Below are positions 9,096 through 59,312 of a stretch of DNA of 64,000 nt, in pieces. How positions within the stretch are numbered: the first letter of the stretch is position 1; each line of letters opens with the position of its first letter. The translations under genes and the position numbers were made by a program. The notes below the pieces were generated by a model, which saw only the letters and a program-made list of their open reading frames with translations, did no database searches and was not told the origin of the DNA. The DNA lies in the NCBI RefSeq assembly GCF_003416765.1, contig NZ_QSNG01000001.1, positions 336,742 through 400,741 of the forward strand, written 5' to 3'. The stretch comes from Paratractidigestivibacter faecalis (lineage in GTDB: Bacteria; Actinomycetota; Coriobacteriia; Coriobacteriales; Atopobiaceae).

Positions 9096-9131
9096 GCGCC
9101 CGGCGAGAAGCACGCACTTCTCGCCGGGCGC
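9096..9131 (+). terminator. Perfect 15-bp-arm hairpin after guanine deaminase (GGCGAGAAG family)
   Basis: GCGCCCGGCGAGAAG (9096-9110), loop CACGCA, CTTCTCGCCGGGCGC (9117-9131), then CTACTCTTAA. It is a strong terminator-like stem and a clean example of the recurrent GGCGAGAAG/CTTCTCGCC palindrome. Confidence 0.65.
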
Positions 9132-54765: not shown

Positions 54766-55731
54766 ATGTCAGTGAGAAGAGCCGACCGCCGTGGCACGCC
54801 GCGCGGAAGGGACGGGCATGTGGCGCGCGTCGCTGCTGCGGCGCTTGTCGCCGTCTTGGTGCTGGGAGTGTGCGCCGGCGTGGCCGTTGCCGTGTCCGCG
54901 TCCTTCTCGGCTGCGCCTCCGGCGTCGGGCAACGGAGGCGGTAGGGAAGTGGTGAGCGACAAGGCGCAGCCCGAGGAGCCGGAGGCTCCCGCCGCCGATG
55001 ACAGCTCCGGCGAGCAACAGCTTCCCTCCGACGACGAGCGCGCCGCCGACCTCGCCCTTGACCCCAACCGCCAGACCGACTGGCTCGACCACAGCAACGG
55101 CGAGAAGACCCTCTACCTCACGTTTGACGACGGCCCCTCCGCCAACACCGAGAAGGTCCTGGACATCCTTGACAAGTACGGCGCCAAGGCGACGTTCTTT
55201 GTGACGGGGCACGAGCCGGAGTATCGCCCGATGATCGCGGAGGCGTACCGCCGCGGCAACACCATCGGCATGCACTCCTACACGCATGACTACGCCACCA
55301 TCTACCAGTCCGAGGACGCCTTCTTCGGCGACCTCTCCCAGGTGGCGGATGTGGTCAAGGAGCAGATTGGCTACGTGCCGTACCTCACGCGCTTCCCCGG
55401 TGGCGTCTCCAACACGGTGTCCGAGTCCTACTGCCCGGGCATCATGACGGCGCTTGCCTCCGACCTGCAGGCCAAGGGGTACCAGTACTATGACTGGAAC
55501 GTGAGCTCGAGCGACGCCTCGGGCAACCACGTGCCCGTCGACACCATCGTGCAGTCCTCCTGTGCCTACGGCAGCTTCACCAACGTGATCTTGCTCTGCC
55601 ACGACTCCGGCGCAAAGACCACCACCGTGGAGGCCCTGCCGCAGATCATCGAGTACTATCAGTCCCAGGGCTTCGTCTGCAAGGCCATCGACCGCTCGAC
55701 CGTCGTGGTACACCATCACATCAATAACTAG
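54766..55731 (+). CDS. Polysaccharide deacetylase (NodB domain), membrane-anchored
   Basis: 321-residue CE4-family enzyme. A basic N-terminus and one membrane helix (AAAALVAVLVLGVCAGVAVAV) anchor it outside; a Pro/Glu/Ser linker follows. The NodB motifs are TFDDGPS, HSYTHDYA (zinc His residues), RFPGGVSN, DWNVSSSDA and LLCHD. Likely N-deacetylates peptidoglycan GlcNAc or MurNAc and so raises lysozyme resistance; the sugar is inferred from family. It follows the cell-wall hydrolase, suggesting a small cell-envelope group. Confidence 0.92.
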   Translation: MSVRRADRRGTPRGRDGHVARVAAAALVAVLVLGVCAGVAVAVSASFSAAPPASGNGGGREVVSDKAQPEEPEAPAADDSSGEQQLPSDDERAADLALDPNRQTDWLDHSNGEKTLYLTFDDGPSANTEKVLDILDKYGAKATFFVTGHEPEYRPMIAEAYRRGNTIGMHSYTHDYATIYQSEDAFFGDLSQVADVVKEQIGYVPYLTRFPGGVSNTVSESYCPGIMTALASDLQAKGYQYYDWNVSSSDASGNHVPVDTIVQSSCAYGSFTNVILLCHDSGAKTTTVEALPQIIEYYQSQGFVCKAIDRSTVVVHHHINN

Positions 55732-55791
55732 CGAACCCAAAACGTGCGGGAAGGCGGGTCCGAGAGCCTTGCTCCGCGCGTTTTGGGTTCG
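55732..55791. repeat. Inverted CGAACCCAAAACG pair after the deacetylase gene
   Basis: CGAACCCAAAACG (55732-55744) and CGTTTTGGGTTCG (55779-55791), exact inverted copies beginning right after the deacetylase stop. It may act as its terminator, but the same word reappears five more times around the next gene. Confidence 0.65.
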
Positions 55792-55845
55792 GGAAATCGC
55801 GCGTGTCCGGCGCAATCCTGGGCCTATGTCAGCCGGAAGTTCAAG

Positions 55846-55882
55846 CCCCGAACCCAAATCGATATCCGTTTTGGGTTCGGGG
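55846..55882. repeat. Palindrome CCCCGAACCCAAA...TTTGGGTTCGGGG
   Basis: 13-bp perfect arms around TCGATATCCGT. Its 31-bp core (55849-55879) matches the core at 57288-57318 on the other side of the nuclease-like gene with only three differences. Confidence 0.7.
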
Positions 55883-56138
55883 CACTTTCATGCACGAAGA
55901 AACATTCATACCTTGATATGTACCAAAATTGTTGTTCCAACGCCGCCCAGTGGGCGCCGTTTGGCGCCAAACGGTATGCAATATCAAGATAGCAAATAAA
56001 AAATGAGATTCACTCTGATGGATTTACCACCGTTTAGCTGCTAAATCATCGTTTGCTGTCAAACATCCGTCAGCGTTCTGAAAGCTTGCCGCAAGGGTCT
56101 CGGCGGCGGGAAGACGCCGATTCCGCTAGGCTCTTCCC
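55883..56138 (+). promoter_or_regulatory. AT-rich upstream region of the nuclease-like gene with an 18-bp palindrome
   Basis: No gene. Contains the perfect palindrome CCGTTTGGCGCCAAACGG (55957-55974), enclosed by CTTGATAT (55914) and ATATCAAG (55981). Its base composition is far more AT-rich than the genome. A likely operator region, with the palindrome as the core site. Confidence 0.45.
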
Positions 56139-57161
56139 ATGTCGATTCTTGTCTCACATACCAGCGCGTTGCAGCTCATGAGGCTGCGTGGGTACCCCGC
56201 CCGGGTCAAGGAGTGGAGCGAGTCAACCTCCTATGTTCCTCCCAAGCTGCCGGGGCACCAGAAGGTCATGCGCATCATCTCAGCCGACGACCTTCTGCGT
56301 GAGCTGCCCATGCCGCTCGATCTTCTCGTTCGCACCGACAACAACAGCCATACAACCGCCTTGGCCGACAAGCACGTGACGAGAAGCGCCTTCCCCCGCG
56401 ATGCATTCGTGCGCCTCTCCGAGGACCTCTACTGCGTCGCGCCCGAGCTCATTGCCTTCCAGATGGCAAGGGGAGCTAGTGTCGAGCAGGTTGCCCTGTT
56501 ACTCTACGAGCTCGTTGGCACCTATGCGCTTGATTGCGGCTCTTCCTATGGCATGACGCAGAGAAAAGAGCCACTGACAACCATCGAGGCGATATCCGAA
56601 ATGCTGCTCAGGAGAGGTTCCACTCATGGCTCGAGGAAGGTCGGCGCGGCGCTGCCCCTCGTCGCCCCGGACTCGGGATCGCCGATGGAGAGCAAGCTTG
56701 CGCTGCGCATCAAGGCGCCCGTCGACCAGGGCGGGTGGGGCATGCAGTTTACCTCGATGAACCACAGCATGTGGCTTGGGCGGCTCTCCGGGCGCTTCGA
56801 GGAGCTCAAGCTGAGAAAGCCGGACATCCTGTTTTGCGGTACTCGAGAAGGCTCGGGGCCGAGGTTCGTTGCGCTCGAGTACCATGGAGCTTGGCACCTG
56901 CAGGACGAGCAGGTCAAAAAAGACGAGGTCAGGCGTAACGAATTTGCCGCAAACGGCATAAAGGACTACACGATCTTCAAAGATCAGTACGATGACCTCG
57001 ACTACATGGACTGGCTGATTTCCCAGATAGGGGAGGAGCTGGGCATCTGCATGGACTATCTTGCCTGGGGCAAGAACCTGCGCGAGGACCTTTACCAGCG
57101 CCTCGAGAAAGCCCGTCCCCTGGGCCTTGCCGACGATTCCGCGGTGCGCCTCTCCGCGTAG
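56139..57161 (+). CDS. Putative PD-(D/E)XK nuclease of DUF559/AbiEi-like architecture
   Basis: 340 residues. The N-terminal half resembles the AbiEi-like part of actinobacterial DUF559 proteins (SPEL-type turn here APELIAFQMARGASVEQVAL, LLYELVGTYAL). The C-terminal half has the Vsr-like nuclease layout: Glu184 (SPMESKLALRIK), Asp229 (KPDILF), Glu247-x-His249 (VALEYHGAWH), then KDEVRRNEFAANGIKDYTIF. This predicts a DNA endonuclease, but the lysine of the EXK motif is histidine, and I cannot confirm activity. ATG 56139 has only GGCTCTTCCC upstream, a poor ribosome site. Framed on both sides by CGAACCCAAA palindromes and by AT-rich DNA. Confidence 0.6.
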   Translation: MSILVSHTSALQLMRLRGYPARVKEWSESTSYVPPKLPGHQKVMRIISADDLLRELPMPLDLLVRTDNNSHTTALADKHVTRSAFPRDAFVRLSEDLYCVAPELIAFQMARGASVEQVALLLYELVGTYALDCGSSYGMTQRKEPLTTIEAISEMLLRRGSTHGSRKVGAALPLVAPDSGSPMESKLALRIKAPVDQGGWGMQFTSMNHSMWLGRLSGRFEELKLRKPDILFCGTREGSGPRFVALEYHGAWHLQDEQVKKDEVRRNEFAANGIKDYTIFKDQYDDLDYMDWLISQIGEELGICMDYLAWGKNLREDLYQRLEKARPLGLADDSAVRLSA

Positions 57162-57185
57162 GCGCCTGTCTGGGCGCCATTTTCA

Positions 57186-57420
57186 CGTTTTGGGTTCGGC
57201 GCTGTGGCCAAGCGACAAAGACTCATTTGCAAAACTGCAGGTAGAGCAGTTGCTCGCTAATCGGCGGGATGCCTCTCTCCCGAAGCGCGAACCCAAATCG
57301 ATATCTGAATTGGGTTCGTGGGCGGGGTGCAAAGAGAAAAGCCGCAGGAGAGACAAGGTCTCTACCTGCGGCTTTGTTGTGAGCGCTGTTGGCTGGGGTC
57401 AAAATCGCGAACCCAAAACG
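57186..57420. repeat. Further CGAACCCAAA-family copies after the nuclease-like gene
   Basis: CGTTTTGGGTTCG at 57186-57198, the 31-bp palindrome core at 57288-57318 (CGAACCCAAATCGATATC, then TGAATTGGGTTCG) and CGAACCCAAAACG at 57408-57420. The 288-base gap holds these and the terminator below, and no gene. Confidence 0.7.
57341..57378. terminator. Bidirectional terminator between nuclease-like gene and ABC exporter operon
   Basis: GCCGCAGG (57341) pairs with CCTGCGGC (57365-57372), continued inside by AGAC/GTCT. TTTGTTGT follows on plus and TTTTCTCTTT on minus. Confidence 0.82.
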
Positions 57421-57449: not shown

Positions 57450-59312
57450 CTACGCGGCGTCCTCGAACTGGGAGTTGTAGAGCTCCGCGTAGAAGCCGCC
57501 CTTGGCGAGAAGCTCCTCGTGGGTGCCCTTCTCCACGATGTCGCCGTCGCGCAGCACGAGGATGACGTCGGCGTTGCGGATGGTGCTCAGGCGGTGCGCG
57601 ATGACAAAGCTCGTGCGGCCGCGCATGAGCTCGTCCATGGCGCGCTGGATGAGCTCCTCGGTGCGGGTGTCCACGTTGGACGTGGCCTCGTCCAGGATGA
57701 GGGCGGGGCGGTCGGCCAGGATGGCTCGCGCGATGGTTACGAGCTGGCGCTGGCCCTGGGAGAGGTTGGTGCCCTCCTCGTTGATCACAAAGTCGTAGCC
57801 GTCGGCCAGCGTGTGGATGAAGTGGTCGCAGCGCGCGGCCTTGGCTGCGGCCTCGACCTCGGCGTCGGTGGCGTCGGGGCGGCCGTAGCGGATGTTCTCG
57901 CGGATGGTGCCGTTGAACAGCCACGTGTCCTGCAGGACCATGGCAAACTCCTTGCGCAGCGCCGCGCGGTCCCAGTCGCGCACGTCGATGCCCTCGACGC
58001 GCAGGTTTCCGCCGTCCACGTCGTAGAAGCGCTGGAGCAGCTTGATGAGCGTGGTCTTGCCGGCGCCCGTCGGACCCACGATGGCCACGGTCTGGCCGGG
58101 CTCGGCCACGCAGCTGAAGTCGTGGATGATGGTCTGGCCGGGCACGTACCCAAAGCGCACGTGGTCGAACTCCACCAGGCCGGGGCGCTCCTCGGCCACC
58201 TGGGCGTCTGTCGCCTGCTCCTCCTCCGGCGCAGCGAGAAACTCAAAGACGCGCTCGGTGGCGGCAGCCATGGACTGCAGCGTGTTGCCCACGTTGCCGA
58301 GCTGCTGGACCGGCTGGGTGAAGTTGCGGACGTACTGGATGAAGGACTGGATGTCGCCGGGGGTGGCGTTGCCCGTGAGGGCCAGCTGCGCGCCCACCAC
58401 GACGACGCCCACGTAGCCCATGTTGCCCACCAGGGACATGAGCGGCATCATCAGGCCGGAGAGGAACTGCGACCTCCAGCCGGAGATGAAGAGGCGGTCG
58501 TTCTTCTCGTCGAACTCGGCCACGGCGGCGTCGGCGCGGTCAAAGACCTGGATGACGTTCTGGCCGGCGAAGTCCTCCTCGATGATGCCGTTGACGGCAC
58601 CCAGGACCTGCTGCTGCTCGCGGAAGTACGGCTGCGAGAAGTGAATCATGACCATCATGATGATGGCGGCGGCCGGAAGCGTCAGCACGGTCACGCCGGT
58701 GAGCGGCAGGCTGATGGAGAGCATCATCACGAGCACGCCGAGGATCTGCGTGACCGAGGTGATGAGCTGCGTGATGGACTGGTTGAGGGACTGGCCCAGG
58801 GTGTCCACGTCGTTGGTGATGCGGCTGAGCACGTCTCCCTTGCTGTGGCCGTTGAAGTAGCTCATGGGCACGACGGAGATCTTGTGGGCGATCTCCTTGC
58901 GCATGCGGTAGCAGATCTTCTGCGTGACGCCGGTCATGAGCCAGCCCTGCACGAGGTTGCACGCGGAGCTCGCCAGGTAGAGGCCGAGCAGGAACAGCAG
59001 GGTCTTGCCGATCCAGTCAAAGTCCACGGCTCCGGTGCCGCTCACCTTGGCGACAAGCCCCTCGTAGAGCTTGGTAGTAACCTGGCCCAGCACCTTGGGG
59101 CCCACGATGTTGAAGATGACCGAGCAGATGGCAAAGGCAATGCCGAAGAGCACGGCCACCTTGTGCTGGCCCACGTAGCCCAGCAGCTTCAGCATGGTGC
59201 CCTTGAAGTCCTTGGCCTTCTCGACGGAGCGTCCGCCGCCAAAGCCGCGGCCGCCCATGGGGCCGCGCTGGCGCTGCTTGGGCATGACGGTCTTGGAGTT
59301 CTCGTCTGCCAT
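57450..59312 (-). CDS. ABC exporter half-transporter (canonical ATP site partner)
   Basis: 620-residue fused membrane/ATPase protein of the multidrug/lipid exporter class. An N-terminal cytoplasmic leader rich in Gly/Arg precedes six membrane helices (residues about 40-330) and the ATPase domain: Walker A GPTGAGKTT, signature LSQGQRQLVTIARAI (Gln for the first Gly of LSGGQ), Walker B LILDEATSNVD with catalytic Glu, H-loop IAHRLST. It pairs with the next-upstream gene as a heterodimer; the start overlaps that gene's stop by one base (TAATG). Confidence 0.93.
   Translation of the reverse strand: MADENSKTVMPKQRQRGPMGGRGFGGGRSVEKAKDFKGTMLKLLGYVGQHKVAVLFGIAFAICSVIFNIVGPKVLGQVTTKLYEGLVAKVSGTGAVDFDWIGKTLLFLLGLYLASSACNLVQGWLMTGVTQKICYRMRKEIAHKISVVPMSYFNGHSKGDVLSRITNDVDTLGQSLNQSITQLITSVTQILGVLVMMLSISLPLTGVTVLTLPAAAIIMMVMIHFSQPYFREQQQVLGAVNGIIEEDFAGQNVIQVFDRADAAVAEFDEKNDRLFISGWRSQFLSGLMMPLMSLVGNMGYVGVVVVGAQLALTGNATPGDIQSFIQYVRNFTQPVQQLGNVGNTLQSMAAATERVFEFLAAPEEEQATDAQVAEERPGLVEFDHVRFGYVPGQTIIHDFSCVAEPGQTVAIVGPTGAGKTTLIKLLQRFYDVDGGNLRVEGIDVRDWDRAALRKEFAMVLQDTWLFNGTIRENIRYGRPDATDAEVEAAAKAARCDHFIHTLADGYDFVINEEGTNLSQGQRQLVTIARAILADRPALILDEATSNVDTRTEELIQRAMDELMRGRTSFVIAHRLSTIRNADVILVLRDGDIVEKGTHEELLAKGGFYAELYNSQFEDAA

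Follow-up and report, generated by a model that had tools for sequence, protein, structure and literature searches.

The window (the whole stretch of DNA that was analysed, 64,000 nucleotides) contains a gene for a 340 amino acid protein that lies between two arrays of short CGAACCCAAA-type sites. The features of the locus were as follows.

54766-55731, plus strand: polysaccharide-deacetylase-like gene (ORF; named from our own reading of the sequence), the upstream neighbour, outside the unit.
55732-55879, no strand: array A, with sites at +55732, -55782, +55849 and -55870, starting one base past the stop codon of the deacetylase-like gene.
55849-55879, no strand: central palindrome of array A, CGAACCCAAATCG-N5-CGTTTTGGGTTCG, read from the sequence.
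56139-57161, plus strand: gene of the 340 amino acid AbiEi-like/EDxHD nuclease protein (ORF; 46 homologues support its start and catalytic residues).
56139-56672, plus strand: N-terminal domain, residues 1-178, which in the predicted model resembles the C-terminal domain of AbiEi antitoxin (AlphaFold2 pLDDT 91; VIA).
56679-57044, plus strand: predicted C-terminal Vsr/EDxHD (PD-(D/E)XK) nuclease domain, residues 181-302, with E184, D229, E247, H253 and D262 (VIA; conservation).
57186-57420, no strand: array B, with sites at -57189, +57288, -57309 and +57408 and spacings of 99-21-99, filling the gap to the transporter gene.
57288-57318, no strand: central palindrome of array B, with three differences from that of array A, read from the sequence.
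57332-57377, no strand: terminator-like hairpin AGCCGCAGG...CCTGCGGCT within the right arm of array B, read from the sequence.
57450-59312, minus strand: ABC-transporter gene (ORF), the downstream convergent neighbour, outside the unit.

The nuclease gene is free-standing, and its locus was unchanged in most pairs of orthologues. No AbiEii nucleotidyltransferase toxin gene was present beside it, the neighbours being the deacetylase-like and ABC-transporter genes. Upstream of the gene the AT content is 51%, compared to 35% across the window, in agreement with the AT-rich upstream region of the original prediction. The window protein matched no Pfam, PADLOC or NCBIfam family, and no Pfam, NCBIfam or PDB sequence family covered the group of homologues. 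MTES_1575 was weakly matched by two of the 46 family members, under the family cut-off.

An AlphaFold2 model of the whole protein had a pLDDT of 90. Foldseek by itself gave no significant structural match. Using VIA, residues 181-302 aligned to the catalytic domain of I-Bth0305I (3r3p) with a Z score of 10.2 over 94 residues at 2.3 Å. Residues 1-178 aligned to AbiEi (6y8q), Rv2827c and MenA with Z scores of 7.5, 5.2 and 4.5, respectively, of which the value for AbiEi is middling and makes this likeness a lead. AbiEi-family proteins were three of the nine matches listed for the N-terminal domain, and the AbiEi match covered the C-terminal domain of AbiEi only. AbiEi binds DNA via its winged-helix domain, for which no counterpart was matched in the window protein. 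E184 and D229 were invariant in the 46 homologues, position 247 was E or D, and H253 and D262 were nearly invariant. E184, D229 and E247 had been named beforehand as a PD-(D/E)XK core and this assignment held. In the predicted architecture of the window protein, a domain resembling AbiEi antitoxin is joined to a Vsr/EDxHD-type nuclease domain whose catalytic residues are conserved. The model thereby supports the earlier proposal that the protein is a nuclease of PD-(D/E)XK type and is partly AbiEi-like.

The two 31-bp palindromes were present as first described, as were further copies of the repeat around the gene at 55732, 55782 (minus strand), 57189 (minus strand) and 57408. Near-matches to CGAACCCAAA numbered 11 in the window compared to a mean of 3.1 and a maximum of 8 in 100 shuffles. 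The 2.1-Mb genome to which the window belongs contained 41 exact copies compared to 2 for the reversed control. A chance repeat was ruled out by the window shuffles and the genome count. The genomic copies were grouped in approximately 16 arrays adjoining the 3' ends of genes. The nuclease gene had been credited with its own flanking palindromes; by the criterion set beforehand, palindromes equally common at unrelated loci, the idea of a pair private to this gene was not upheld. A REP-associated or solitary module had also been suggested; the REP-like organization was retained and the private pair of palindromes was not, given the 16 or so arrays.

The arrays share one plan. A central palindrome, made of two sites at a distance of 21 bp, is preceded at about 99 bp by an outward site and followed at about 99 bp by an inward one. 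The same plan was found in Thermophilibacter gallinarum, Olsenella sp. An270 and other Atopobiaceae. The extension of the core was lineage-specific, being AAATCG or AAACG in the window genome and AAACCC in Thermophilibacter. Spacers were unrelated between arrays of one genome, which ruled out recent MITE copying as the sole account. Array B folds strongly as RNA (z -7.5) because of its inverted repeats and terminator. An RNA element was rejected, as no Rfam family was found and the quantisation of 10.5-11 bp between distant sites described below argues for double-stranded DNA. A terminator-like stem with CCGCAGGT/ACCTGCGG was often enclosed by array arms, for example at 57332-57377 in the window and in L010.

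A separate 9-mer, CTTCTCGCC, had 26 copies in the 64-kb window compared to 0 for the reversed control and about 0.8 expected. Copies lay within genes and, as inverted pairs, in terminators, for example at 9102/9117, 17999/18014 and 22 other places. Its density is reminiscent of DNA-uptake sequences.

Distances between facing sites were 42, 54, 65-67, 76-78, 87-88, 97-99 and 108-110 bp in 71 intervals, with nothing in between. For these 71 spacings a period of 10.5 bp gave a Rayleigh R of 0.85 and a period of 11 bp one of 0.89; a group of five 110-bp values was from homologous stretches and is worth about one. Central site pairs were almost always 21 bp apart. Same-strand spacings in the flanks of family loci (493 pairs) had an R of 0.6 at a period of 10.25-10.5 bp, with peaks at 31, 41-42, 52-53, 62-63, 82-84 and 123-126 bp. 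In 36 of 63 loci the modal spacing differed by no more than 1.1 bp from a multiple of 10.4, compared to 20% by chance. The CGAACCCAAA site spacings are quantised by 10.5-11 bp and all sites therefore lie on one side of the helix. Spacing of this kind would follow from a requirement for the sites to face the same side of double-stranded DNA.

The window's genome encodes six further relatives of the nuclease gene and related genomes encode several each. All 13 genomes with a family match in a sample of the phylum fall in the window's order. A plasmid search gave one weak Collinsella match. A de novo scan of flanks showed most paralogues to be bracketed by different repeat families, such as CTCGTCTCA every 41-42 bp, CCTAAGCGC every 41 bp and GACAAGGGC every 31 bp. 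At least three 12-mers were common to both flanks in 73% of 70 nuclease loci compared to 7% of 101 other genes (p 1e-18), the control set including one actual family member (L049) which was counted against the result. All p-values given here are nominal and related loci are not independent. About a quarter of the nuclease loci had no clear shared flank repeat. The 101-gene control ruled out repeats of this kind around any gene, with only one non-member having strongly shared flank repeats. Whether the same palindrome flanks homologues had been proposed as a check; flank repeats were common and the motif was specific to the clade.

An outlier from outside the family, L041:3226-4341, is a 371 amino acid gene of AbiEi/nuclease-like look with no Pfam match and no significant profile match. 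It is bracketed by a palindromic element of about 75 bp (CGCCGAGAAA..GGTCGGATTG..TTTCTCGGCG). This element was also seen at other gene ends in the same species (L197, L201).

A flank motif was common to 32 of 35 protein pairs at 70% identity or above compared to about 1% of pairs below 50%. The window clade is an exception and shares its motif down to 43% identity. Related genes with the same motif were found at unrelated loci (L025 compared to L074-L077; L082 compared to L104). Motif and gene thus occur together at different loci and the link is therefore more than an inherited neighbourhood. Motifs were dispersed throughout the genome of the cognate gene in all three cases tested. GGCTCGTCTCAG had 128 copies in G132, where the paralogue L082 carries the motif, and 0-1 in most other genomes. 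It was also frequent in G128 and G135, which are incomplete genomes where the closest homologue found was only 55% identical. GCCACAAAN10CGGC had 41 copies in G001 and 0 in the window's own genome (G000), which is of the same genus. Among 40 genomes the window protein clade (at least 43% identity) was present in 7 of 8 CGAACCCAAA-rich genomes and in 0 of 32 others (Fisher p about 4e-7, with kinship between genomes ignored). The seven include G113, which has 24 CGAACCCAAA sites and a broken gene copy. In G137, 11 sites are present and the gene is absent. Several of the genomes are drafts, and assembly may be interrupted at arrays.

An IS3-like transposase gene (698 amino acid ORF) splits an array in L024:3446-4884, and in L014 another IS-like gene lies directly against an array near 1047. 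ISs insert into REPs in other systems. The arrays might be mobilised by another enzyme, with the nuclease gene a passenger and its protein at most autoregulating from the flanking arrays. Such an account would fit the two ISs and the persistence of arrays in G113 and G137. It is nevertheless improbable, as motif identity tracks the protein clade, the protein clade tracks the motif-rich genomes and strongly shared flank repeats were so rare among the 101 other genes.

Arrays of CGAACCCAAA lay at a median of 25-31 bp from stop codons and those of GGCTCGTCTCAG at a median of 89 bp. The arrays were at 3' ends, with 14 in convergent and 3 in divergent arrangements. Four orthologous arrays, compared between two species, were identical at all 160 site bases and at 635 of 722 spacer bases (p 1e-8). 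In another array the spacing was kept within 1 bp across three species and the spacers had diverged. Constrained sites and spacing with drifting spacers, and a position at 3' ends enclosing terminator-like hairpins, would also suit sites of chromosomal architecture or transcription insulation between gene ends. The protein would then be mainly a structural factor that bridges DNA, with a nuclease fold that serves binding, and the arrays would have spread by ordinary recombination. We consider this unlikely given the invariant E184 and D229, the different motif for each paralogue and the array positions, which differ between relatives. Arrays of the window's genome were not at orthologous sites in G001 and G004: of the positions checked 0 were filled in either genome and one was filled in G112. 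The 3' end of the ABC-transporter gene has orthologues without an array in both G001 and G004.

Empty sites in relatives had been proposed as a check, and filled, empty and collapsed array sites were all seen among sister species. One array was filled in G112 and G124 and empty in G111 and G122. Where the array is present, its first site overlaps the host gene's stop codon. At another place G124 has three sites compared to exactly one in G112, the difference being a 108-bp deletion between two same-strand sites. Further array losses were found at three more sites. The sister-species comparison gave no target-site duplication or fresh insertion and the sole precise event was the deletion. The gene has seldom moved recently, since most orthologous loci of gene and arrays share the same position.

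Other differences between genomes were observed. The 3' end of rho in T. gallinarum (L179) has a different 41-bp phased array, CGTCCCGGAAT, where the window's genome has a CGAACCCAAA array. Between L087 and L091, from two species, the cassette of gene and arrays has opposite orientations at the same place among its neighbours, which recombination between the mirror-image arrays at its flanks would be expected to produce. Records of Olsenella, Enorma and Atopobium (L055, L058, L066, L069, L072) have in common an almost identical stretch that carries an array, with 110-bp spacing and 93-99% protein identity, which suggests a shared mobile region.

Genome-wide dispersal, helical phasing and the different flanking repeats of each paralogue had been missed in the original prediction. 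Taken with the protein model, they make it on balance probable that an AbiEi-like/EDxHD nuclease gene and its own cognate class of repeat arrays form one member of a family of paired elements. The protein would bind phased sites cooperatively and the nuclease would drive the copying, turnover and upkeep of the arrays; we infer the binding, cleavage and mobilisation. The protein most likely recognises short sites with a core of approximately 10-13 bp, in many members within a composite of approximately 22-25 bp. On mirror-image arrays with sites on one helix face, several protomers would bind cooperatively and bend or loop the DNA. AbiEi binds inverted repeats cooperatively and bends DNA (PMC7319586), and cooperative bent or looped binding is proposed because of this behaviour and the anatomy of the arrays. 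Two arrays flank the gene and others lie just past stop codons at other chromosomal locations. The nuclease domain probably cuts in or beside the arrays. Repair from another array would then copy, shorten or remove arrays. Cutting and repair together would give REP-like spread and turnover, with the gene and motif staying together. Several observations tell against this reading, namely the rarity of recent gene movement, the negative outcome for target-site duplications and fresh insertions, the unmatched winged-helix domain, the CGAACCCAAA sites of G137 and G113 beside an absent or broken gene, the abundance of GGCTCGTCTCAG in G128 and G135, and the quarter or so of loci with no clear shared flank repeat.

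A further-reaching claim is that these are self-propagating genome repeats. Each member of the nuclease family would build, move and maintain its own phased arrays at gene ends through cutting and repair without any transposase, with dozens of specificities in one bacterial order. We hold this tentatively, as somewhat short of an even chance. Should the pairing of gene and arrays be right, the many paralogues, which each seem to read a site of their own, would amount to a natural library of protein-DNA specificities. A major group of gut bacteria would also have, for its intergenic repeats, a candidate maker and a function open to testing.

Defence systems commonly contain AbiEi-like and restriction-type domains. 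In a defence role based on self-recognition, the arrays would retain the nuclease on self DNA or mark it there, and the nuclease would attack invading DNA; several paralogues of different specificity per genome would agree with such a role. No catalogued defence protein in PADLOC matched the window protein, however, and no partner gene, methylase or toxin was common to the loci. To our knowledge dispersed arrays beside gene ends are not a layout of any defence system. Defence is accordingly a very doubtful account.

The window system was compared to known systems. I-Bth0305I, an EDxHD (Vsr-like) homing endonuclease, resembles the window protein in its catalytic fold and the E-D-x-H-D residue pattern. 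It differs in that the window gene appears to lie outside any intron or intein, is flanked by its own arrays and encodes another N-terminal domain. The AbiEi, Rv2827c and MenA antitoxins resemble the N-terminal domain in its predicted fold, and members of this kind bind inverted repeats (PMC7319586). Unlike these antitoxins the window protein has no matched winged-helix domain and no AbiEii toxin partner, is fused to a nuclease and has sites dispersed in the genome. DUF559 and MTES_1575 REase proteins belong to the same nuclease superfamily, and a literature search found no association of these families with arrays. BIMEs and MITEs are likewise interspersed palindromic composite elements at gene ends. 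Here the spacers are not copied and only the sites and the helically quantised spacing are kept.

In REP/RAYT (TnpA-REP) systems the gene is flanked by its own repeats, these are dispersed extragenically in the same genome and the protein clade matches the repeat class (PMC2817692). The window system is similarly a nuclease gene between its own dispersed repeats with a motif matched to the clade. RAYTs are Y1/HUH tyrosine transposases whose substrates are REP hairpins in single-stranded form, bearing a GT(A/G)G head. In contrast, the window protein is of AbiEi-like and EDxHD type and not a Y1 (HUH) transposase, as judged by the lack of a Pfam match, the nuclease fold and the best structural match to I-Bth0305I. 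Its repeats are CGAACCCAAA-type sites without a GT(A/G)G head and form multi-site arrays phased to the double helix. No published description of the association between this gene family and repeat arrays was found in the open-licence literature, consistent with the undescribed system that had been proposed. The system is called categorically new because no described counterpart was found for either part or for the phased-array design. More cautiously, it could be a variant of the kind formed by REPs and a partner gene. It works like REP/RAYT and is not a member, the protein fold and repeat design being unrelated. If this is right, it is a second and independent partnership of a gene with dispersed repeats besides RAYT/REP, built on another nuclease fold and on double-stranded, phased binding sites.
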